In this document: positions 37,169 to 52,679 of the stretch, piece by piece
Position numbering within the stretch: the stretch's first letter is position 1
Layout of the letters: each line of letters begins with the position of its first letter
Assembly (NCBI RefSeq): GCF_018986435.1
Contig: NZ_JAHMIN010000037.1
Location: 13,388 to 66,066, forward strand
Direction of reading: 5' to 3'
Origin: Hahella sp. HN01
Lineage (GTDB): Bacteria > Pseudomonadota > Gammaproteobacteria > Pseudomonadales > Oleiphilaceae
Length of the DNA stretch: 52,679 nt
The notes under the pieces: model-generated
Told to the model about the DNA's origin: nothing
Database searches by the model: none
The model's input: the letters and a program-made list of their open reading frames with translations, nothing else
Translations under genes and position numbers: made by a program

Positions 37169-37219
37169 TTTAATTTAAGGATAAAGACAACAAAGAGTTG
37201 AACTTCAACTCTGACAAAT

Positions 37220-37241
37220 AAGCGCCTAAGGCGCTTTTTTT
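37220..37241 (+). terminator. Terminator after tRNA-Leu
   Basis: AAGCGCC-TAA-GGCGCTT followed by a T-run. The next 230 bp, up to the convergent tRNA-like cluster, show no gene. Confidence 0.85.
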
Positions 37242-37464
37242 GTTTCTGCTCCCAGACGCCTTCCCCTCCTCTTTCGACCATAGATAGCAACCATCCAAAA
37301 CACCTCAAGAAGCTGGTTAGCACTGACAAACTTCAATCAACATTCGCCACCCCACATCCGCCAACCTCGGACTCAAACCCTAACAGGCTTACCAACAGCA
37401 GAGATCTTTCGCAAAGGGCTGCTTAAGATTTATGTCAGTTGAGCTATCTGAATTGGGCACACTT

Positions 37465-37494
37465 AAAACGCCAAGAGGCTTATTCAGTAATAAG
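37465..37494 (-). terminator. Possible 3' end of the RtcR-linked tRNA operon
   Basis: On the minus strand downstream of the UUC tRNA, a CTTAT/ATAAG hairpin is followed by GCC-TCTT-GGC and GTTTT. Stems are short, so this is a weak terminator candidate. Confidence 0.3.
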
Positions 37495-37503
37495 AGGAAG
37501 TTT

Positions 37504-37578
37504 TGGTGCGCCAGGACGGAGTCGAACCGACATTACAAGGTTGAAAACCTTGCGTCCTCACCATTAGACGACTGGCGC
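37504..37578 (-). tRNA. tRNA-Glu-like (anticodon UUC), last of the RtcR-linked cluster
   Basis: A 75-nt cloverleaf with acceptor GCGCCAG/CTGGCGC, a tRNA-Glu-type D-arm (TCGTCTAATGGTGAGGAC), anticodon stem CAAGG/CCTTG with loop TTTTCAA, and encoded CCA. Oddities: the acceptor stem is unlike the usual bacterial tRNA-Glu, the discriminator is A instead of G, and the T-stem (GTCGG/CCGTC) has a U-U mismatch. A housekeeping tRNA-Glu is presumably elsewhere (usually in rRNA operons). It lies 25 bp after the GCA tRNA on the same strand. Confidence 0.85.
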
Positions 37579-37603
37579 AATGGGAAAGTGGATATTTATG
37601 CAT

Positions 37604-37678
37604 TGGAGAGGTCGGCGGGACTTGAACCCGCGATCGTCAGTTTTGCAGACTGATGCATTACCGCTCTGCCACGACCTC
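37604..37678 (-). tRNA. tRNA-Cys-like (anticodon GCA), second tRNA of the RtcR-linked cluster
   Basis: A 75-nt cloverleaf with acceptor GAGGTCG/CGACCTC, anticodon stem TCAGT/ACTGA with loop CTGCAAA, T-arm GCGGG-TTCAAGT-CCCGC, discriminator U (a CysRS identity base) and encoded CCA. The first acceptor pairs (GAGGTCG) differ from the GGC-type start common in bacterial tRNA-Cys. It appears functional by structure. Second tRNA from the sigma54 promoter, after the structured RNA. Confidence 0.88.
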
Positions 37679-37715
37679 TTTTTTGATATTAACTTGGCAA
37701 TAATATTGGCATGTT

Positions 37716-37830
37716 AATCATCAGGCGCATGGATGCGCCAGCGCGGCGGCTAGCCGCGGGAGACAGGGACTGACATGTGCAGGCCCTGTCGTTGCAGACA
37801 AATAGAAGGAAGCTATTTGTCTGCCTGATT
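37716..37830 (-). ncRNA. Compact four-hairpin RNA inside the RtcR-linked tRNA operon
   Basis: Four consecutive hairpins fill this 115-nt spacer (plus coordinates): GGCGC/GCGCC (724-739 of the 37-kb block), CGCGGC/GCCGCG (742-758), GACAGGG/CCCTGTC (762-790) and a 12-bp perfect stem GCAGACAAATAG/CTATTTGTCTGC with 7-nt loop (794-824). The ends, AATCA (37716-37720) and TGATT (37826-37830), can close the whole as a multibranch structure. It has no ORF of note and begins three to six bases after the CAU tRNA on the transcribed strand. I do not recognise a known RNA family. Confidence 0.6.
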
Positions 37831-37835
37831 AATAG

Positions 37836-37909
37836 TGCCGCCTGTCGGACTCGAACCGACAACCTATGGCTTATGAAGCCAGTACTCTAACCGATTAAGC
37901 TAAGGCGGC
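37836..37909 (-). tRNA. Atypical tRNA with CAU anticodon (Met or Ile2), first gene after the sigma54 promoter
   Basis: Acceptor GCCGCCT pairs perfectly with AGGCGGC; anticodon loop is TTCATAA; T-arm GTCGG-TTCGAGT-CCGAC is perfect. Oddities: D-stem GCTT/GAGT relies on two G-U pairs, the anticodon stem has a C27-U43 mismatch, and after discriminator A the genome reads CTA instead of CCA, so CCA must be added or the RNA is not charged. It lacks the initiator GGG/CCC anticodon-stem pairs. Elongator Met and lysidine-type Ile2 are both possible; the CCTTAGCT junction resembles Ile2. Confidence 0.75.
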
Positions 37910-37915
37910 GTAAAG

Positions 37916-37970
37916 CGGCTCTCTTTCGCAGACGAGCCGGATTCTGAAGGTATGGCTGCCAGCCAGAATC
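37916..37970 (-). other. Structured 5' leader of the RtcR-linked tRNA operon
   Basis: Between the predicted sigma54 start site (about 37972) and the first tRNA, two hairpins fold: GATTCTG/CAGAATC (37940-37970, with an inner GGC/GCC stem) and CGGCTC/GAGCCG (37916-37939). They nearly fill the leader, leaving only a few bases before the tRNA 5' end at 37909. Confidence 0.5.
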
Positions 37971-37982
37971 TGTAACTGTTAT

Positions 37983-37999
37983 AGCGAGCTGCGTGCCAA
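37983..37999 (-). promoter_or_regulatory. Sigma54 (-24/-12) promoter for the tRNA-like operon
   Basis: The minus strand reads TTGGCACGCAGCTCGCT. This matches the TTGGCACG-N4-TTGC(A/T) consensus with a perfect -24 block and one mismatch in -12 (TCGC), and the GG and GC dinucleotides have the required spacing. Transcription would start near 37972, about 60 nt before the first tRNA. rtcR, a sigma54 activator gene, is divergent immediately upstream. Confidence 0.8.
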
Positions 38000-38027
38000 C
38001 TTATTTTCACCCCACCAAATAGAATCA

Positions 38028-38040
38028 TAAGCAATTGTTT
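38028..38040 (-). promoter_or_regulatory. IHF-like site between the sigma54 promoter and the candidate enhancer
   Basis: On the minus strand AAACAATTGCTTA matches WATCAANNNNTTR at all but one position. IHF bending between enhancer and promoter is usual for sigma54 systems; the location fits. A 13-bp match with one mismatch can arise by chance in AT-rich DNA. Confidence 0.4.
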
Positions 38041-38099
38041 TATAAATGCTTATAGAATTACCGAGCAAAAATACAGTATTGGACGTAGCTTATACGCGC

Positions 38100-38135
38100 A
38101 GCAATAAATATCATGTTTGATATCAAAATATTGCT
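38100..38135. promoter_or_regulatory. Nested dyad upstream of rtcR, candidate RtcR enhancer site
   Basis: AGCAATA/TATTGCT (outer) and ATATCA-TGTT-TGATAT (inner) form nested inverted repeats just before rtcR. The centre is about 145 bp upstream of the predicted start of the tRNA-like operon, a normal enhancer distance, and close enough to the rtcR start codon for autoregulation. Confidence 0.45.
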
Positions 38136-38156
38136 TTGGATACGCCCCAAATTTCG

Positions 38157-39806
38157 ATGAACAGCAAAAATATCGTCCTATCCATTCTCGGCACGACTTT
38201 GGATGTCGTGTCCAAGCGTCGCGGTAAGTTTGAGAAGCGCTGGGAGCGCTGGCGGCCGAACGTCTCCATCACTCAACGCGCCGAGGTCTTCCCGGTGGAT
38301 GAGCTGCATTTACTCAGCGCTGGTAAAGACATGGCGCTTGCCGAAGAAGTCTCTGCGGATATCAATGTCGTCAGCCCGGAAACGCATGTCGCCATCCACG
38401 ATGTCAGCTTTACCTCCCCGTGGGAACTGGAGATCACCTATCTGCAGTTGCGAGACTTTCTTTCCGACTTCAGGTTTGACCCCAGCGCTAATTATTTTTT
38501 CCACATCACGACCGGCTCGCATATTCAGCAGATCGTTATCTTCCTGTTGCACGAATCGCGACTTTTTCCCGGCAAGCTGTTGCAAACAGCGCCACCGAAG
38601 GAAGGTTCGACTGAACCGCGCCACCAAATCATCGACCTGGATCTTTCCAAATACGACGCAATTGCAGAGCGTTTTCGCAAAGATCATCTTGAAGGTGAAG
38701 ACTTTCTGAAATCCGGCATTCAGACTCGCAACCCGGCGTTCAACCGGATGATTCAGCAAATCGAGCTGGTCGCACAGCGCTCTATCGCGCCCATGTTGAT
38801 CACCGGTCCGACTGGCGCCGGCAAGTCCCATATCGCACGCCGCATCTACGAGCTGAAGAAAAAACGCAATCTGGTGAGCGGCGATTTTGTGGAGACCAAC
38901 TGCGCCACGCTGGTGGGCGACAACGCTATGTCCACCTTGTTCGGCCATAAAAAAGGCGCATTCACCGGGGCAGTGGATAAGCGGGACGGCTTACTGAAAC
39001 GTGCGGATAAAGGCATGGTGTTTCTTGATGAAGTCGGCGAGCTGGGTTTGGATGAACAGGCCATGCTGTTACGCGCCATCGAAGACAAATGCTTTCTGCC
39101 CATGGGCGCGGACCTGGAGGAGAAAAGCGACTTTCAGCTGATCGCCGGCGCCAATAAAGATCTTCGCAAAGAAGTGAAAGAAGGTCGCTTCAGAGAGGAC
39201 CTCTTTGCGCGTATCAATTTATGGACTTACCGCCTCCCCGGACTGGCGGAGAGGAAACAGGACGTCGAACCCAACATCGAGTACGAACTGGATCGATTTG
39301 AGCGCAATCATGGCGAGAGAGTGGCGTTCAACAAAGAAGCCCGCGCCCGCTATCTTGAGTTCGCATTGTCTCCCGAGGCGCTTTGGCCCGCCAATTTCCG
39401 CGACCTCAACGCCAGCATCGTGCGCATGGCGACCCTGGCGGACAAAGGACGGATTAAGACGGATCATGTGGACGAGGAGCTACAGCGGTTACGTTATCTG
39501 TGGTCGCACGCGGAATCGCCGGCGATGGCGAGCAGCTTATCTCTGGATGATTTTCTGGCCCAATATCTCGACCTCGAACAGCTTGAGCACGTTGATTATA
39601 TTGAGAAAGTGCAACTGAAAGCCGTCATCGAAGTGTGCAGAAACTGCCGGGACGGCGCAGAGGCGGGACGCACCATTTACAATGCATCCCGGCTTCGCAA
39701 AAAACAGACAAACGACTCCCATCGATTACGTCAATATCTGGCCAAGTACGGCCTTCACTTTGACAGCATCAGTCAATTCAGTCTGAATGGAAATAGCGCC
39801 AGCTAG
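38157..39806 (+). CDS. rtcR: RtcR, sigma54-dependent activator with CARF sensor domain
   Basis: A 549-residue bacterial enhancer-binding protein. The N-terminal CARF domain (about residues 1-180; NIVLSILGTTLDVVSKRRG, FFHITTGSHIQQIVIFLL) senses RNA-damage products in E. coli RtcR. The AAA+ domain has Walker A TGPTGAGKSHIARR, the sigma54-contacting GAFTGA loop in HKKGAFTGAVDKR and Walker B GMVFLDEVGEL. The C-terminal segment (ASRLRKKQTNDSHRLRQYL) is the DNA-binding end. ATG 38157 matches the E. coli start; a TTG at 38136 is alternative. In E. coli, RtcR activates rtcBA, absent here; instead a sigma54 promoter drives the divergent tRNA-like cluster. Its stop overlaps that of the convergent protease gene. 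Confidence 0.93.
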   Translation: MNSKNIVLSILGTTLDVVSKRRGKFEKRWERWRPNVSITQRAEVFPVDELHLLSAGKDMALAEEVSADINVVSPETHVAIHDVSFTSPWELEITYLQLRDFLSDFRFDPSANYFFHITTGSHIQQIVIFLLHESRLFPGKLLQTAPPKEGSTEPRHQIIDLDLSKYDAIAERFRKDHLEGEDFLKSGIQTRNPAFNRMIQQIELVAQRSIAPMLITGPTGAGKSHIARRIYELKKKRNLVSGDFVETNCATLVGDNAMSTLFGHKKGAFTGAVDKRDGLLKRADKGMVFLDEVGELGLDEQAMLLRAIEDKCFLPMGADLEEKSDFQLIAGANKDLRKEVKEGRFREDLFARINLWTYRLPGLAERKQDVEPNIEYELDRFERNHGERVAFNKEARARYLEFALSPEALWPANFRDLNASIVRMATLADKGRIKTDHVDEELQRLRYLWSHAESPAMASSLSLDDFLAQYLDLEQLEHVDYIEKVQLKAVIEVCRNCRDGAEAGRTIYNASRLRKKQTNDSHRLRQYLAKYGLHFDSISQFSLNGNSAS

Positions 39807-45014: not shown

Positions 45015-45880
45015 CAAACAACTATTTCTTCCCTGTTAAAAACAACTCTACAACGCTTCCTATTTCTTTTAAACTCAGCCATTACACCCCTAACTTCTGG
45101 CCGAACATCTCGAACATCAATAGACTCAAGACTCTTCAACTCTAAAAAGCTTAAAATTCCTTCCATTGAAATAGAACTATCATCCAGAACTATACTAGAC
45201 ACATGCTGATACCCGCTAGCTTGTTTTAGGTAGCTAAGCAACTTATCATCTGCAGCATCCCCCATTATCGCCAAACGAGTAGATATACTTTGCATTTCAA
45301 ACCATTCCCACCCCTTCCACAAATCAAAACTAACCCGCCCCTGTAAAGAGTTTGCTTTTTCGAAGTAGTTTCCATTCGCTAGAATAGCGTAAACTCTCCC
45401 GGTGTCACCAACCCCAACTCTATACTTAAAATTATCTTCACTATATAACTCCAATGATACAGGCACACCATTCCGCCATTCATACTCTTGTGAAAGATCA
45501 TTTTCTTGAATAACAAGAAACTCTATATCCCCGTGATACGTCCAATTAGCCTCATGCAGAAGAACTCCTCCATTATAATATTTTTCAGCAACACAGACAT
45601 CTTTATCAAACTCAAAAACGGTACCATTAAACGGCTCACCTTTATAAGAAACAGGCTCACTACCAGAATCTAAAAACGTTTCTTCTATACATATATCCGA
45701 AAGAGAAATCTTTGACCAATAACAATTTTTATATTCATTCTCGATACATCCATTAACTATTACGTCGCCTCTCAATCGCCCTTCTGGCAGCAGAAAAAAA
45801 GCCAAACCCGTGAATATTTCTTCTTTATAAAAGAACACCCCTCCATTATTAGTTAGCCTCTCAGCTTTAATTCTCAGCAT
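45014..45880 (-). CDS. YwqK-like immunity protein for the Rhs deaminase toxin
   Basis: A 288-residue protein without signal peptide. Its N-terminal half has MORN-like beta-hairpin repeats as in YwqK-type antitoxins: NNGGVFFYKEEIFTGLAF, VSYKGEPFNGTVFEF and CVAEKYYNGGVLLHEANW. The C-terminal part (VSSIVLDDSSISMEGILSFL, LKSLESIDVRD) resembles a few leucine-rich repeats. The ATG overlaps the rhs stop by one base (TAATG), so toxin and immunity are translationally coupled. YwqK is the partner of the YwqJ deaminase toxin in Bacillus, matching the toxin domain upstream. Immunity function is inferred. Confidence 0.72.
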   Translation of the reverse strand: MLRIKAERLTNNGGVFFYKEEIFTGLAFFLLPEGRLRGDVIVNGCIENEYKNCYWSKISLSDICIEETFLDSGSEPVSYKGEPFNGTVFEFDKDVCVAEKYYNGGVLLHEANWTYHGDIEFLVIQENDLSQEYEWRNGVPVSLELYSEDNFKYRVGVGDTGRVYAILANGNYFEKANSLQGRVSFDLWKGWEWFEMQSISTRLAIMGDAADDKLLSYLKQASGYQHVSSIVLDDSSISMEGILSFLELKSLESIDVRDVRPEVRGVMAEFKRNRKRCRVVFNREEIVV

Positions 45881-48800
45881 TATTCTGCTCCTTTATTAGT
45901 TAATATTTCAAAAATGGAAGAGGGTAGTATTCCACTGCAATTCTGGCAAGCCTCAAAATCTTTCCCTTTCTTAGCAGGATTAGTAGTGATATTAACAGTC
46001 GCCACCTGAATTTTTTCTTTCAAGGTTAGAGAATGTTTGCTAAGTTGATTGAACAAATCATTGGCGGCTCTCACTTCCGCGTGAAGTCCAGGCAGTCCAT
46101 TATCTGTACTGAATATCTTCTCGCCTGCTGAGCCAATATATTCTCTTATAAGAATTTCAGCATTAGTGCTAAGAGGCGCAGGATTCTCCTCTGCCAATTC
46201 ATACAGCTTACGGACTTCATAAATGTATTTATCTACATCTGTAATCTTAAATAACGTAGTCTCCCCCTCAATCAAGCTTGCTCCTTTAAGGCCCTTTACA
46301 TTTCCCTTTAAATTCGTAAAAAAGTCACTAAATACCCCTAACTCTGGTAAGCCTACTTTTGCAACAGCCGCCAATCTACCACGAGCTGATTTAGTATGAG
46401 CAGCCATCAACTCATACGCCTTATCCCTAACACTCTCGACCAATTTTTTACCAAACTCTGACCTTAAGAGAGATACAGCTTCACTTGTCGTAGTCTCTAT
46501 TCCTTCTTTAATCGATTTACGAGAGGGAAGCCCCGATCCGCCACCTTTACTTTTAATATCACCAATCGAGCCGATTTGATTTCCAGATGAAATTGACCCA
46601 GAACCCTTAAACTCGACTTTTCCTACTCCAGACCTCTTTGCGCCCGCGAACATCATGAAAAGATTGCCAAATGCCTCTCCAGCTCTTTCGCCATCCCCAG
46701 TAATAACGCCGGTCCCCAGCTCATACCCAAACGTATAAGGTGCAAAAATAATCCCCGCAGCCATCTCGAGCAGTATGTCGCCAGTACCGGCGCCACCCGC
46801 TACAGATTGCCCCATAGCGCTGGTGTAGTTGATATCTTCTGGTGCATTTCCTGTCAGTAATGACTTCCCAAAATTCCAGGCCACCTGCTCTATGTCATAC
46901 ACCATTGCTAATGGTTCATACACTGCGGAACCTAGCGCCTTCGCAAAACCAATTCCGAACTTACCAACTTCTCCTAGAACGCCTCCGCCCTGCTCGTCGC
47001 CAATTACGCGCCCCTTATCTATCACTACAGTGGTACCCAGCTGCGATGGCCTTTTTAATACATCAAAAGCAGAGCTCGGCAAAGGATCGTCAATATTTTC
47101 CAGACCGTTGTATAAAGCCTTTAACTCAAACTCGTAATCCGTCCCTTTAATTGACTCACTAACTTGGTTTGAAGTTTTTACACCACCACTAGATACTCCG
47201 ATTAGAGCTAAATCTCCTAAAGCACTCCCAACAACCCCCGCTATCATCCCCACATAGTCAGGACGATAGTCTTCGCTGTCATAAACAGCGGTCCTCACTG
47301 CTTCAGACACGACTCCCGACGTTATTCCGCTTATCGCTGAATAGGATAGAGGTGTGCTCAGGGGGCTCGGCATCCAGCTTTGCGCTTCCAGTCCACTGTG
47401 AAGAATGCTGCCTGTTTTACCAAGTCCGGTTCCTCCCATAATGGCGCTCGTCGCCAGACTCGCGGCGACATCTCGCCATCTGAAGTGGGTCTCTTGGTCG
47501 ACGAGTTTGCCTGCGGCGTAGTTTGCGCCTACCGCCGTTAAAGCTTTGCCGGCGGTTGCCGACCAAGATATATCTTTCCCCCACCCCATGTACTGGCTGA
47601 TCCCGGCTGTAGCGGCGGCGGTAAGCCCTCCGCGTAGCGCAGACCGGAGTGAAAAGTGGTCCTGAAGGTCCAGCTCTTTTGCCGCAAGCTGAGAAACAGC
47701 ACTGCCGGCAAGGCCGCCGACAAATGCCCCCGCCGCTGTTGCAAAAGCGCTTGCGCCCGCTGTTAGCGTGGTTATGGTAGCGCCGCCTGCGCCTATGCTG
47801 GTAACGGTAGTCATGCCGGCAGTGAACAGCGCATCACCAACGACGCCCGCCAATGCCGGAGCCACTATAGCGGTTACGGCGATTGCGATAATCATTACAA
47901 ATATCGCAGCGCCAGCGCATTTGCCCTTCTTGGGCGGAGGCGGCGGTTCAGGCAGTGTCGGCGTCGTATCCCCCAACGCCAGACCAGGATCGTAAGGCCT
48001 GAACGTTGACGCATTATTGTGGATGTTCGTTACCACGTTCGGGACGACCAGATTCAGGTCTGCTTTTAGATCCTGATCTCCTGACAACCCATTCGCGTCA
48101 GCAATCAGATACCAAAGGCTGGCGTCGCCCCAGAGTCTTGAAGCAATCGTCGCCAAAGTGTCGCCACTGTTTACGCGATAATATGTCGGCGCCTTACCCG
48201 GATAGTTCGAGTTTATAGGCTGGAAGTTTTGATCGAAGTCCGCAGAGGTAACAGGGACTATTCGCTTCAGATTTGAGTACCCAATCTTACGCTTAACATC
48301 CCGATTGAAGGTAAAGTGCCCCTCTTTTCCAACCGGGATCGTCACCTGCTCCTGGCCAACAACGTGTTCTGTATCCGGCATGTTAGCCAAATGCTGAACA
48401 TAGTCAGTGCGAGATGGAACATCATCACTCCCCATATCGCCTCGAACAATACCGTTCAGATAGAAGAATTTGCGTCGGACCGGCGCCTTACCTCCTTTTT
48501 CCTCCCAGTCCACTTCATCCCGGAAAAGTATTTGCCCATTATGATTATTGACGTAACTCAGGCTACGGTCCGCTGCATGGTCGTATACAAACAGATTATG
48601 GCCGTTGGCGTCGTATGCGTAATACGAAGTTCCTGGTTTCCAGTTATCTACGCCACTCTTTGTAGCCGTGATGGTAACTTTACTTTCCTTATAAGTATCC
48701 CAGCGGTCTTGAGAATCATAGAAATAGTCAGTAACACTATTCGCATCATCGCCACTTCCTTTAAACTCCGTTTGACGCAGAGTCTGTCCGTCATTTAGAT

Positions 48801-51800
48801 AGTGATATTTAATACTTCTATCGACAGCGCGGCTATCAGCGACAGTAATCTTACTTTCTAATAGACGGTTATCAGCATTATAATCATAGGATTCTTCACT
48901 GACTTTGAACGTCTGAACGTTTCCATTATATTTTTCGTACTTATACTCGGTCTTCTTTTTCGTTCTTCCTAACGGATCAATGTTCTCTCTCCGTGAGATT
49001 AAAACATACCCACCATCAAAGTTTGCGCCAGTAGCATCTTTAAATTTTTCGTCATATAACCAGATGGTTTCCAGGTTGCCTCTTTCGTCATAGCCGTATT
49101 TCTGCCGAACCTCTTGTGGAGAACCGCTATTTTCGGATAGTTGCGCGCTATCGCTACTGAGGCGACGCCCCATAGCGTCATACTTAATAGAATATCCCGT
49201 ATTCCCGGCGCCTATCGTCCGCACGCCATTAGCAGCTTGATTTAACGCCCCCATGGTAACCAGGAAGCGATTCTCTTTATCGTAGAGATAAAAGAAATCC
49301 TGCGTTAGCTTATTTTCTCCATATTTATCGCTTGAAATAGCCGCATTGTCATATTCAGCTTTCACCCGGCGACGATTGCCTACCGCGTCATAAAAGTAAT
49401 TGAGCTTGTAGTCATAATCATCAATTTCATAGACACGATTTAGCGCATCATATTTAGCCGTCACATTTTGATAAGGAAGCGTGTCGTTTTCGAGCCCACC
49501 CGCCAAATCAGAAAATGGCTTACTACGATAGGTTTCTCCAACGACATTTCCATTGGCGTCATACCGAAATTCAGTAAAGCTTTTAGCCCCCTCATCAAGT
49601 ACTTGATGCAAACTTCCATTTGCATAGTACTTATACTCAATCTTTTGTGACTTACGCTGCCTCACCCTATCGGCAATTCCTGTGTCTGTAGGAATGATGC
49701 TATCAGAGTAGTTAAATGCTGTATTGCTGGTTTGCTTTGTTAACCAGCCAGCTTGGTTATACTCATAATAGAATTCATGCCCCCCCAGGTCCTTGTGGTA
49801 GCGAATTTTTCCAAAATAATCGACATCATCGGTTAAAAGGTGATTCGTTCTATAGTTAGCGTTGGTTTCTGTATTTAGACCATTTTCCGTCGTTTTTCTG
49901 AAACCGCCAATGCCGCCAATTTCAGCGTCATAGGAATATTTATAATAAGTTTCTCTTCTTTCCCATTTGGCGCTGTTGTTGGAGATATCGCCATCGTCGA
50001 AGCTGATATGCTTAGTGATACGTCCTTCACCGTCATAAAAATACTTCTGTTGAAAGTTCGCCGCATTAGTATGAGTGATCCTATTGCCAGCTTCGTCATA
50101 ACTATAACGCTCACTGGAATATGACGAGCCCTGGAGATAGTTGCTGAGAGAGCTAAATTGACGAACCTCCTGCAAACGGTTCGCTTTATCATAAATGAAA
50201 GAATGATAGCGACCCAACTCATCGATCATTAAACGCTTATTGCCTAACTGATCGTACTTATAAGTCTTCTTCGCTCCCATCGCATCTACTTCAGACGCGA
50301 CTTGTCCTGCAGCGTACTCCTGACCACGATAAAATGCTGTATCGCCTTTCCATTCATTGGAATACCCCGATTTCTGTTGATGCAGATAGCTGTTCGCATC
50401 TTGACTTGCGACGAGGTTATTCTGACCGTCGTAATAGTATTTAGTTACAGGATGGGCGTTTAGCGACTTCAATGAACTATTAGAATCGCTTGCGGACTCA
50501 GGCCCATGATCCTGATATACAGCCACTTTCGGATCAACTTTATAAGTAAGTCTGCCTTGAGCGTCATAGGCCATGTGAGTGGCGTTACCGTTACCATCCA
50601 CCTCCTTTACAATCTCGCCAAACGCGTTGTATCTCTGACTGCGGTGAATTTGATAACTTGACTGTTCACCTAACAACCAACTAACGCGGTAATTTTGGAT
50701 TACACTTCTCTGCTCAGGGCTCTCTAACTTCCAGGAGCCGCCTATATTTTCTGACGATGTTGTCTGGGCTGACTCTGTGTGTGTTTTCTTAGTTACTACG
50801 TAATTATGAATAAACTCATACTTATAGCCATCTACATTACCAGATCCCATTCCTACATAAACGCTGGCTGAAGCTCTATTTTGAACTCCCCCTTGTGCGT
50901 TACGTGTTTCATAATCTAACTGATATGCCCCTTCAGAAAGCGCAAAGTAAAATCTCTCTTTATATTTTATAGCCCGCCCGCCTAACTCTGCGGATTCAAC
51001 AAAACTAGTACTTGTAGCTGAACCAGTTTTTCTCCCTTCCTGAAGAGAATAGTTATATACGCCATCAAAAACTTTAACATTACTTATGCTTGGAACATAA
51101 ATACTAAAACCTACTGTCTGACCAGGAAAGTCATTACGACCAGACCTTTCGACCCGCCCTACATGGGTGAAAACAATACTTTGCTGCCCCGGATTAACTA
51201 TCTTTTCCTCAACCTTCTCAGAACTGGAAAACTTTATTTTTAGCGGAACCCCAAGCCGTTTAAGCTCAGGAGGAATTTCAACTGTATATGAGTTACTCCA
51301 TCTTGCGGTAGTTGGCCAACCGTATTTTTCATCCGCATATACAACATCTTCTTTTCCGTTGATTGTGACTGTGGTTTTACTTGGAAGCCCATGATCTTTT
51401 GGAGCAGAAAGCGAGCCCACTATTGAATCTAGAGTATTTGGCTCACCGATAATCAACATACCAAACTCAGTAGATTTAGATACCTTCGTCGTTCGTCGCC
51501 CTTGATTTAACGAAAAACTATAACTACCTTCAAATAACTTCAAACCACCGAGTGATGGAACATAAATTTTAAAGGAGACAGTTTGATCATGAATCCCCCC
51601 CTTCCCGACACTCCCATTATGTTGAAACTCAACATAGTCAGAAATATTGGTCGGCACCCCTGTGTCAACCAGCTTAGATCCGTAATAAAAGTCGACTTTT
51701 AATGGGAGCCCTAATTCTCTAAGTTGCTGTGGAATTTTTACTTTATATAAATTTTTCCATATTGCCGCAGTAGCTTGACCATATGTTCCTATAGCATGTG

Positions 51801-52679
51801 TTACATCTATCACTCCTTCTATTTCCACCACATCCCTGCCAATAGCCTTGGCCTCTCCTTTTTTTCCGCCCACCTTCACATACTCATCAACAACACTTCT
51901 TTCAAGCCTGACTCTCTTAGTGTCATGAGTGGTTTTCATAGGGGCCGTCACTGTCACAGTTCCGCCACGCTCATAACTGATCAATACGTGATAACTGTTT
52001 TCCTTCTCCTCGATTTTAAGACTTGAAAGCGCCTCCGCGTCCAACTCAAGATCGGATTTGAAGGTAAATTCCTGTGTCTGTACATCACGATAGATATAAT
52101 AATTGTGGGTTGCCCCTACTGGCTCAGCGGCTCGCCAGATACGAACAGTTGTTTTGACATATTTATTTTCATTTGCAGGATCTTTTTCCACCCTCTGCGC
52201 TTGCCAGGCGGAGTCATAGCTATTGGTAGCGTTACTTAATGCAACGTCACTTAAGCCTTTACCTACTTTTGTTAATTCATACTGCAACGCCAGGGCAGAT
52301 TCGACCTGAGTCAAATCAAAGCCATCAAATCCAATCGGAGTAGTAGAAGAACTTGTGCCTGGAGCACTGGAATAATACCCAACATTCTTTTCGTTATACT
52401 CTACCGTCGTTTCCTCTTTGACATCCTCCCAAGCTGTAAGCCCAGGCTGAGGCGCCTGCGTTCCCAGCAGTCGTTGCCTGTACTCCTCAAAGTCGACGGT
52501 TGAACTCCAATTCTTATCAACCTCCTCTTCCGTCAAGGAAGCGCTCAACTGGCTGTAATCATGAGGCGCCTCAAAGGTGTCCGTCTGGCGGTTGCGTTCG
52601 TCATACACGCTGACTTTCATCTGCGTCTGCAGCACGCCCAGCGCCTTCACCTGCTCCGGCGACGTCAGCGTCGCCAGGT
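45880..52679 (-). CDS. Giant Rhs/YD-repeat polymorphic toxin with C-terminal YwqJ-like deaminase (5' end outside window)
   Basis: More than 2,260 residues, open to the window edge; a GTG at 52650 is only an internal codon. From N to C: beta-rich segment with two paralogous blocks (VYADEKYGWPTTARW-type, about residues 280-560); many YD repeats (YDAQGRLTYKVD, YDQLGNKRLMIDELGRYHSF; about 660-1380); a LysM domain (YYRVNSGDTLATIASRLWG, about 1490); a proline stretch; hydrophobic segments (AAIFVMIIAIAVTAIVAPAL) about 1575-1640; helical pre-toxin region; and a toxin domain whose GLHAEVRAAND (about 2189) and ACQNCSG (about 2233) supply the H-A-E and C-x2-C zinc site of the deaminase superfamily, closest to YwqJ. 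No PAAR or VgrG is visible here. It is followed by its immunity gene. Confidence 0.85.
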   Translation of the reverse strand, partial: LATLTSPEQVKALGVLQTQMKVSVYDERNRQTDTFEAPHDYSQLSASLTEEEVDKNWSSTVDFEEYRQRLLGTQAPQPGLTAWEDVKEETTVEYNEKNVGYYSSAPGTSSSTTPIGFDGFDLTQVESALALQYELTKVGKGLSDVALSNATNSYDSAWQAQRVEKDPANENKYVKTTVRIWRAAEPVGATHNYYIYRDVQTQEFTFKSDLELDAEALSSLKIEEKENSYHVLISYERGGTVTVTAPMKTTHDTKRVRLERSVVDEYVKVGGKKGEAKAIGRDVVEIEGVIDVTHAIGTYGQATAAIWKNLYKVKIPQQLRELGLPLKVDFYYGSKLVDTGVPTNISDYVEFQHNGSVGKGGIHDQTVSFKIYVPSLGGLKLFEGSYSFSLNQGRRTTKVSKSTEFGMLIIGEPNTLDSIVGSLSAPKDHGLPSKTTVTINGKEDVVYADEKYGWPTTARWSNSYTVEIPPELKRLGVPLKIKFSSSEKVEEKIVNPGQQSIVFTHVGRVERSGRNDFPGQTVGFSIYVPSISNVKVFDGVYNYSLQEGRKTGSATSTSFVESAELGGRAIKYKERFYFALSEGAYQLDYETRNAQGGVQNRASASVYVGMGSGNVDGYKYEFIHNYVVTKKTHTESAQTTSSENIGGSWKLESPEQRSVIQNYRVSWLLGEQSSYQIHRSQRYNAFGEIVKEVDGNGNATHMAYDAQGRLTYKVDPKVAVYQDHGPESASDSNSSLKSLNAHPVTKYYYDGQNNLVASQDANSYLHQQKSGYSNEWKGDTAFYRGQEYAAGQVASEVDAMGAKKTYKYDQLGNKRLMIDELGRYHSFIYDKANRLQEVRQFSSLSNYLQGSSYSSERYSYDEAGNRITHTNAANFQQKYFYDGEGRITKHISFDDGDISNNSAKWERRETYYKYSYDAEIGGIGGFRKTTENGLNTETNANYRTNHLLTDDVDYFGKIRYHKDLGGHEFYYEYNQAGWLTKQTSNTAFNYSDSIIPTDTGIADRVRQRKSQKIEYKYYANGSLHQVLDEGAKSFTEFRYDANGNVVGETYRSKPFSDLAGGLENDTLPYQNVTAKYDALNRVYEIDDYDYKLNYFYDAVGNRRRVKAEYDNAAISSDKYGENKLTQDFFYLYDKENRFLVTMGALNQAANGVRTIGAGNTGYSIKYDAMGRRLSSDSAQLSENSGSPQEVRQKYGYDERGNLETIWLYDEKFKDATGANFDGGYVLISRRENIDPLGRTKKKTEYKYEKYNGNVQTFKVSEESYDYNADNRLLESKITVADSRAVDRSIKYHYLNDGQTLRQTEFKGSGDDANSVTDYFYDSQDRWDTYKESKVTITATKSGVDNWKPGTSYYAYDANGHNLFVYDHAADRSLSYVNNHNGQILFRDEVDWEEKGGKAPVRRKFFYLNGIVRGDMGSDDVPSRTDYVQHLANMPDTEHVVGQEQVTIPVGKEGHFTFNRDVKRKIGYSNLKRIVPVTSADFDQNFQPINSNYPGKAPTYYRVNSGDTLATIASRLWGDASLWYLIADANGLSGDQDLKADLNLVVPNVVTNIHNNASTFRPYDPGLALGDTTPTLPEPPPPPKKGKCAGAAIFVMIIAIAVTAIVAPALAGVVGDALFTAGMTTVTSIGAGGATITTLTAGASAFATAAGAFVGGLAGSAVSQLAAKELDLQDHFSLRSALRGGLTAAATAGISQYMGWGKDISWSATAGKALTAVGANYAAGKLVDQETHFRWRDVAASLATSAIMGGTGLGKTGSILHSGLEAQSWMPSPLSTPLSYSAISGITSGVVSEAVRTAVYDSEDYRPDYVGMIAGVVGSALGDLALIGVSSGGVKTSNQVSESIKGTDYEFELKALYNGLENIDDPLPSSAFDVLKRPSQLGTTVVIDKGRVIGDEQGGGVLGEVGKFGIGFAKALGSAVYEPLAMVYDIEQVAWNFGKSLLTGNAPEDINYTSAMGQSVAGGAGTGDILLEMAAGIIFAPYTFGYELGTGVITGDGERAGEAFGNLFMMFAGAKRSGVGKVEFKGSGSISSGNQIGSIGDIKSKGGGSGLPSRKSIKEGIETTTSEAVSLLRSEFGKKLVESVRDKAYELMAAHTKSARGRLAAVAKVGLPELGVFSDFFTNLKGNVKGLKGASLIEGETTLFKITDVDKYIYEVRKLYELAEENPAPLSTNAEILIREYIGSAGEKIFSTDNGLPGLHAEVRAANDLFNQLSKHSLTLKEKIQVATVNITTNPAKKGKDFEACQNCSGILPSSIFEILTNKGAE

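Follow-up and report, generated by a model that had tools for sequence, protein, structure and literature searches.

In Escherichia coli the activator RtcR controls the RNA-repair genes rtcBA, and in Salmonella the rsr-yrlBA-rtcBA operon, from a divergent sigma54-type site. In Salmonella, fragments of tRNA turn on the RtcR operon (PMC7790460). Published work on the family suggests that fragments of cut tRNAs would activate RtcR through its CARF domain and that RtcR, as an AAA+ activator, would then let sigma54-RNA polymerase open the promoter. Anabaena has a silent operon of 26 tRNA genes that shares a repressor, TrcR, with rtcB; translation inhibitors relieve the repression, and deletion of the operon lowered antibiotic resistance in earlier work cited there (PMC10272220). 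HNH genes are widespread in the tRNA array units of mycobacteria and phages (PMC5966550, PMC12803027), and phage tRNAs are predicted to escape the anticodon nucleases of the host (PMC10264068). Here we describe a locus in a 52,679-nucleotide stretch of the genome of the marine bacterium Hahella sp. HN01 (contig NZ_JAHMIN010000037.1; the whole stretch is called the window) at which an rtcR gene stands divergent from three tRNA genes. With a probability that we put at about 65%, this is an RtcR-controlled operon of spare tRNAs, in which tRNA damage would act through RtcR and sigma54 to supply replacements. Each ingredient is known, and the wiring of RtcR to tRNA arrays is, as far as could be seen, new: neither an RtcR-tRNA-array link nor a sigma54-driven tRNA operon was found among the papers listed by full-text searches, which does not prove priority.

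The rtcR gene, which we named rtcR2 (38157..39806, plus strand), runs from an ATG at 38157 to a stop codon ending at 39806 and has 549 codons. Its product matches the equivalog model NF038308 over the full protein (748.7 bits; cut-off 650) and carries a CARF domain (PF06956, E 1.9e-67) and the AAA+ sigma54-activator/interaction domain PF00158, with the AAA+ motifs GPTGAGKS (Walker A) and GAFTGA. Upstream, on the minus strand, both ARAGORN and Rfam (RF00005) find genes for spare tRNA-Met(CAU) (37835..37909, 69.9 bits), tRNA-Cys(GCA) (37604..37678, 70.6 bits), and tRNA-Glu(UUC) (37504..37578, 64.9 bits). An earlier reading of the sequence alone (the sequence-only reading) had placed rtcR divergent from minus-strand tRNA-like genes with these anticodons; ARAGORN, Rfam, and NF038308 agree with it on the positions. 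The trio are cloverleaves of normal score (64.9 to 70.6 bits) with sense anticodons; the 57 Rfam tRNA matches of the genome span 50.1 to 77 bits. CCA is not encoded in the tRNA-Met(CAU) gene of the window and is encoded in the copy of a relative, G001.

A sigma54 -24/-12 promoter-like site, TTGGCACGCAGCTCGCT, faces the tRNA genes at 37983..37999 on the minus strand. Its spacing is GG-N10-GC, in agreement with the TTGGCACG-N4-TCGCT site of sigma54 spacing that had been proposed. A pattern tailored to this site, TTGGCAC-N5-YCGCT, has a single occurrence in the window, against a mean of 0.02 in 100 shuffles. When 37200-38200 was scanned for sigma70 promoters, a single sigma70-like site came up and it reads on the plus strand, where shuffled sequence would be expected to give 1.3; this is weak negative evidence as to a constitutive promoter for the trio. 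Between the site and the first tRNA lies a 5′ leader (37910..37982, minus strand) with two predicted hairpins and 90.5 to 95.9% pairwise identity in four genomes. The spacer between rtcR and the promoter-like site (38000..38156, no strand assigned), where an RtcR enhancer site would be expected, is 81.6 to 88.2% identical among the four congeners. An inverted repeat in it (38027-38053) is an enhancer candidate only and was not found as such at the orthologous locus L035; the inverted repeats of the six loci compared differ and gave no shared RtcR enhancer motif. The tRNA-Met and tRNA-Cys genes are separated by a palindromic repeat of ~150 bp (37684..37834, no strand assigned), probably a small mobile repeat: at E 0.001 the genome has 38 matches to it, a count that includes the repeat and its partial copies, and it is absent from three congeners, whose tRNA-Met and tRNA-Cys genes are 6 to 8 bases apart.

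As in the RtcR-rtcBA systems, an activator of the same family stands beside a divergent, TTGGCACG-like sigma54-type site, and the two lie similarly far apart (162 nucleotides [nt] from the start of the RtcR match in the window, 135 nt in E. coli). Unlike in those systems, the site faces three tRNA genes, RtcR2 falls on another branch of the family, and neither RtcA nor RtcB has a tblastn match anywhere in the 52.7-kb window; the sequence-only reading had reported none nearby. Its further claim, that the tRNAs stand instead of RNA-repair enzymes, holds at this locus and fails for the genome (7.13 Mb in 134 contigs, with a single rpoN match, PF04552, 240.9 bits). A whole-genome search found three full RtcR genes. 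RtcR1 (locus L032) lies elsewhere, in line with rtcB and rtcA in the canonical RtcR-rtcBA arrangement, and RtcR3 (L033) is divergent from genes for tRNA-Ser(GCU), Ser(UGA), Asp, Leu(UAG), Trp, and Gln. All three RtcRs are present in the relatives G001, G002, and G005 too. Two congeners, G004 and G006, have RtcR1 and another RtcR adjoining ten or nine tRNAs (Tyr, Ser, Met, Lys, Asn, Cys, Arg, Leu, and Gln, with His in one only).

The comparison with related genomes that the sequence-only reading had suggested was run: relatives share both the rtcR-tRNA linkage and the -24/-12 element, and both turn up again in another family. The sample of relatives comprised 58 genomes around the window, its own included, with a PF06956 match in 12. 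The complete trio was found in 4 of the 58, exactly the carriers of RtcR2, at 100% identity in G001, 97% in G005, 95% in G002, and in two pieces (97 and 99%) around an insert in G000; all other trio matches among the 58 genomes were at most about one tRNA long and 73 to 90% identical. The six-tRNA array was whole (95 to 100%) in the same four genomes, exactly the carriers of RtcR3. The orthologous loci L035, L038, and L045 likewise have a -24/-12 promoter-like site before the trio. Pairwise identity among the four congeners is 95.8 to 100% for tRNA-Met, 97.2 to 100% for tRNA-Cys, and 97.2 to 100% for tRNA-Glu, and it is 35 to 76% for the sequence past tRNA-Glu. High identity of tRNAs and leader against lower identity of spacer and flank is consistent with purifying selection on the RNAs. 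The recurrence in another family of the order is L265, an RtcR without rtcBA nearby and with Ser, Ile, Leu, Pro, Trp, and Gln tRNAs, which turned up in a search that was not based on tRNAs.

In two relatives the six-tRNA array has been displaced from RtcR3. It lies ~36 kb from RtcR3 in G001, where a segment with a phage-type integrase gene (PF00589; L034:6530-7540) cuts the tRNA-Ser copy left beside RtcR3. In G005 it lies ~7 kb away, and a DUF433/DUF5615 pair that looks like a toxin-antitoxin pair stands in between (L044:5738-6303). With these two insertions, the RtcR3 array is an insertion hot spot. The upstream regions of the displaced arrays (L283:2271-2800 in G001 and L284:2487-3010 in G005, both minus strand) hold a second sigma54-type site and a diverged leader: each array has its own TTGGCACGCGTAGTGCT site ~420 nt before tRNA-Ser, whose score of 25 of 27 compares with at most 20 on the other strand. 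Both regions also match the leader weakly, at E 6e-4 and 2e-3 in a search of 16.5 kb. The promoter-like element therefore stayed with the tRNAs as the neighborhood changed, and judging by these sites the displaced arrays have kept or regained the -24/-12 element. The G001 array also retains a homologue (43%) of a 57-codon leader open reading frame (ORF) and an HNH gene. By eye, a ATTCGATTTTTCGAAT-type palindrome upstream of the displaced site resembles the TTCGAAT repeat beside RtcR3 and is a candidate enhancer.

We then consider RtcR loci more widely. A survey of 122 loci comprised the window, 22 loci around relatives, E. coli, the best 80 of 551 from a genome contig database, 15 from a class sample of 370 genomes, 15 of which passed the cut-off, and 3 viral contigs. 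An order sample, in which 34 of 390 genomes matched, gave 29 further loci and one refetched. Weak PF06956 matches were left out at three places in the class sample and two in the order sample. Since loci overlap, the two samples are not independent; L257 repeats L108, L264 L116, L266 L125, L274 L104, L276 L103, L281 L135, L284 L044, and L193 L112, and there are perhaps more. Within 5.5 kb upstream of rtcR, 98 tRNA or tRNA-like genes in 39 of the 122 loci read away from rtcR; the opposite strand has 13 such genes in 6 loci, and L156 alone accounts for 8 of these. The downstream side holds 1 and 2 on the respective strands, in stretches averaging 3.8 kb against 4.9 kb upstream. Sigma54-like sites were scored with weights of our own, with a threshold of 23 of 27 chosen during the work. 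That score was reached at 87 of 121 loci on the strand leading away from rtcR and at 3 of 121 on the other; the E. coli rtcBA site scores 26, and the RtcR1-type Hahella loci (L032, L036, L037, and L043) score 21 on the divergent side, the only side scored there. The order sample gave the same picture, with 32 tRNA or tRNA-like genes on the divergent strand in 16 of 30 loci against one gene in one locus on the other, and sigma54-like sites at 21 of 30 against 0 of 30. Arrays of tRNAs of ordinary appearance accompany an RtcR lacking nearby rtcBA at the window, L033, L039, L035, L038, L045, L042, L047, and L265. They follow in line after rtcBA at L108, L115, and L052, and L106 and L127 have two tRNAs placed after an SPFH gene. 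At L108, L115, and L052, rtcBA, a tRNA array, an HNH gene, and a tRNA-like gene stand in line behind one RtcR promoter-like site, an order that would possibly combine repair and replacement in one operon.

The RtcR proteins of tRNA-only loci mostly fall on one separate branch. In a tree of 24 rows, 11 fall on one side of a split (support 100/98) and the rtcBA-linked proteins, E. coli included, on the other; the 11 are eight with tRNA arrays plus L034, L044, and L050, and L265 is not in this tree. A quick tree of 133 rows, with a midpoint root, where "branch" means one side of a split, was built from 142 of 152 loci (at least 400 amino acids) by thinning at 97% identity, with 11 rows kept on purpose. 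Its corresponding branch (97% by the Shimodaira-Hasegawa-like approximate likelihood ratio test, SH-aLRT) has 15 rows, L265 among them: 11 of the 12 loci labeled tRNA-only (a label also given to L034 and L284, whose arrays are displaced), L050, and three Ketobacter-type loci with rtcB. In an alignment of CARF domains, all seven rows taken from the tRNA-array branch have a four-residue VSKR-type insert and G[ST]HIQQ (GSHIQQ or GTHIQQ); the three rtcBA-linked rows lack the insert and have GTHVAQ. The insert and the HIQQ change could alter the ligand or partner of RtcR. A phage origin of rtcR itself was set aside: of 38 matches that tblastn made among 50,697 phage records, only two reach a coverage of at least 80%, and both are in records named Acinetobacter phage MD-2021a. 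The three viral contigs with RtcR have no ARAGORN tRNA in the stretches covered, and 76 plasmid records have an rtcR match.

For a comparison with housekeeping tRNAs, we re-annotated the tRNA genes of the genome from the 57 Rfam matches. All nine RtcR-linked tRNAs have a housekeeping gene with the same anticodon elsewhere in the genome, and they are 57 to 77% identical to it: Trp 77%, Ser(UGA) 67%, Met at most 66%, Cys 65%, Leu 62%, Gln 62%, Ser(GCU) 61%, Glu 59%, and Asp 57%. The tRNAs had been called atypical, and these values agree. Among the housekeeping genes, the variants of Asn, like those of Asp, share 99% identity; other housekeeping pairs with the same anticodon (among the CAU genes, and two Ile genes) are 60 to 74% identical, which weakens the contrast. 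By these identities, the RtcR-linked tRNAs are a second set and not dosage copies. In the anticodon loops of the nine, position 32 has often changed from C to U, as judged by eye.

These data suggest the following sequence of events. tRNAs would be cleaved by an anticodon nuclease (a toxin, a colicin, or a phage-defense nuclease) or be oxidized, and RtcR2 would fire from the sigma54 site, inducing fresh tRNA-Met, tRNA-Cys, and tRNA-Glu. The sister RtcR3 would supply Ser, Ser, Asp, Leu, Trp, and Gln in the same manner. Repair would fall to rtcBA, induced by the canonical RtcR1. We infer that the differing sequences of the spares allow them to be charged and yet to evade the nuclease that cut the normal tRNAs, which would let translation restart. 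The idea of diverged replacement tRNAs is the one proposed for phages (PMC10264068); here they would belong to the cell and lie beside a damage sensor. If this is true, RtcR governs the replacement of cut tRNAs as well as repair, the cell itself uses a trick proposed for phages, and tRNA genes come under sigma54 control, an unusual case. Each RtcR paralogue has its own tRNA subset and may tell which tRNAs are cut in nature, which would make the effect of tRNA cleavage on a surviving cell directly testable. The locus suggests that mending may not be the only response of cells to damaged tRNAs, which they may also replace. Taken as a whole, the interpretation offered by the sequence-only reading is partly supported.

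Several observations weigh against an RtcR-controlled operon of spare tRNAs. In E. coli, tRNA fragments bound the CARF domain and not full-length RtcR, and they did not activate transcription in vitro; RtcA and RtcB were required (PMC9650030). The eight L156 tRNAs lie on the strand opposite to that expected. The RtcR branch and the gene content do not fully coincide: L147 (Phycisphaerales, with tRNA-like Arg and Leu genes, 2.5 kb upstream covered) falls outside the tRNA-only branch, and the three rtcB-containing Ketobacter-type loci and L050, which has no ARAGORN tRNA nearby, fall inside it. No anticodon-loop change was seen by eye to be common to all nine tRNAs, and Ser(UGA) keeps the housekeeping loop. 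Nor does the window array show a leader-RNA match or an HNH gene, both seen with larger arrays.

Among other explanations, we first weigh a decoy, which we consider unlikely: RtcR-induced tRNAs would have a main role other than translation and would absorb or inhibit a tRNA-cutting nuclease, or serve RtcB or RtcR as a substrate. A second kind of tRNA gene in RtcR operons speaks for it. Single or paired tRNA-like genes often carry odd anticodons (AAU, AAA, AUG, AAC, AGG, and others) and sometimes CAU or another sense triplet. At the 41 loci with both a tRNA-like gene and an SPFH/Band-7 gene (two samples, duplicates included), the distance between them is 278 to 516 nt in 37 and 1.1 to 1.8 kb in 4. 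Anticodons that vary freely and are unusual for bacteria stand before the SPFH genes of L120, L122, L136, L113, L152, L255, L269, and others. Burroughs and Aravind (2016) reportedly described tRNA-like RNA and SPFH/Band-7 modules in RtcR operons, and we take these genes to be their "novel tRNA-like molecule." Such modules share with our locus a tRNA-shaped RNA gene behind an RtcR-type promoter-like site, but they mostly have an odd anticodon and a following SPFH gene, and the window locus has neither: its anticodons are CAU, GCA, and UUC, and no SPFH gene was found there by tblastn. Also in favor of a decoy, it has been suggested that the tRNA-like domain of YrlA might inhibit the anticodon nuclease (PMC7790460). 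Against it stand the ordinary anticodons and full cloverleaf scores of the window tRNAs, and most array tRNAs elsewhere carry sense anticodons and an encoded CCA. By eye, tRNA-Glu keeps U11-A24/U13-G22 and tRNA-Cys keeps U73, which are identity elements of these tRNAs.

The arrays could instead be derived from phages or other mobile elements, having landed beside rtcR by chance or because it serves as a target for integration, and constitutive or silent. This we hold to be improbable as the whole explanation; it is a question of origin no less than of function, and part of it may hold alongside replacement. The tRNA sequences are unlike those of the host, and the best-ranked phage matches to the spares are the adjacent tRNA-Met and tRNA-Cys genes of T4-like Acinetobacter phages, at 71% over 155 nt. 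The spares are, however, barely nearer to the phage tRNAs (71% for Met and 73% for Cys) than to those of the host (67 and 65%), and the housekeeping tRNA-Met of the host is 93% identical to the phage tRNA-Met. The first tRNA-Ser copy of the sister array, cut in G001 by the integrase-gene segment (PF00589), also points to mobility, as does the frequency of HNH genes in mycobacterial and phage array units (PMC5966550, PMC12803027). Those units resemble the RtcR-linked arrays in being clusters redundant with, and diverged from, the chromosomal tRNAs, and most of the larger RtcR-linked arrays have an HNH gene as well. They differ in that RtcR-linked arrays have 3 to 10 tRNAs and lie beside RtcR; no HNH match was found at the three-tRNA array of the window, which is thus not a large array unit of this type. 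Nor would chance be expected to place different sets of tRNAs behind a -24/-12 site repeatedly, even after displacement.

A very unlikely account is compensation for codon demand or dosage, in which extra tRNAs would serve translation under stress with no relation to tRNA damage. The Anabaena operon, which responds to ribosome-targeting antibiotics, is a precedent, and it resembles the Hahella arrays in being a second tRNA set of redundant anticodons and diverged sequences; it is silent and stress induced, and its regulator controls rtcB too. It differs in its size, its place on a megaplasmid, and its ribbon-helix-helix (RHH) repressor, whose site overlaps the -10 box; no RtcR homologue could be identified in Anabaena (PMC10272220). 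For Hahella, all nine anticodons duplicate housekeeping ones, and the regulator comes from a family of RNA-damage sensors, which argues against compensation. That RtcR2 has another true target and the tRNAs are merely nearby is hardly credible, even though sigma54 activators can act at a distance and L103 and L104 have a second TGGCAC-type site downstream of rtcR before an HNH gene, because the -24/-12 site nearest rtcR2 reads into the tRNAs and four genomes have kept this site together with the leader and the tRNAs.

Arrays of the RtcR3 type begin with a small ORF, a terminator-like hairpin with U7, and a second long stem. This conserved leader RNA, a possible attenuator, precedes the RtcR-linked tRNA arrays at L033:9738-9843 (plus strand), L265:3066-3175 (plus), L042:7429-7523 (minus), and L047:3009-3102 (plus), and an HNH gene at L050:12461-12570 (plus). 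Six sequences, of which four come from congeners, align at 86% mean identity; in the consensus fold, 5 of 36 pairs are changed on both sides, from three lineages only, and the folding energy lies below that of 200 shuffles (z -5.0, -4.6, and -5.9). Searched over 49 chosen loci, the leader model matched directly before the L042 and L047 arrays (E 4e-6 and 1e-4), neither of which had been used in building it. Twelve weaker matches (E 0.01 to 0.13; L125, L116, L275, L282, L284, L108, L103, L115, and four duplicates) are on the correct strand before an array or HNH gene, and 13 further matches had E 0.56 to 4.7. In 381 order genomes, 65 matched the model (R1) at E<=0.01, strongly only G000 and G548 (E 2e-26 and 4e-19), both training sequences; the rest start from E 1e-5. 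At gathering scores, Rfam found only tRNA at L033, L039, L042, and L047, and at E up to 5 it gave no family for the leader element in L050. Nor did Rfam at E up to 5 show missed tRNAs at L050, L116, and L125, all of which keep the HNH gene. Tentatively, and with clear doubt, the RtcR paralogues of this group of bacteria might divide among them an inducible second tRNA set, each tuned to a particular tRNA cleavage, with nuclease-resistant spares as replacements alongside RtcR-rtcBA repair and the terminator-like leader of the larger arrays as an additional gate, responsive to how translation is faring.

An HNH gene (PF14279, PF01844) follows eight of the nine examined arrays of at least five tRNAs (L033, L039, L042, L047, L108, L115, L283, and L284, not L265) and likewise the three-tRNA array of L052. 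At L103 and L104, as noted above, a separate TGGCAC-type sigma54-like site serves the HNH gene that lies downstream of rtcR, judging by its position. As a marker for new arrays the gene was rejected: the family is common (173 of 370 class genomes), and among 30 loci returned only the known array had tRNAs. The L033 operon holds small ORFs of 57, 72, and 15 codons among its tRNAs, at ~278-451, 1055-1273, and 1530-1577 nt from the rtcR start. The 72-amino-acid product has no Pfam match; the 15-codon ORF ends in SNN, as does a 16-codon ORF of L050, by eye. Elsewhere in the window, 45880-52650 on the minus strand encodes a YD-repeat/Rhs-like protein of 2256 amino acids, whose C-terminal end looks deaminase-like by eye (LHAEVRA ... 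CQNC) and which is followed by a smaller gene downstream.

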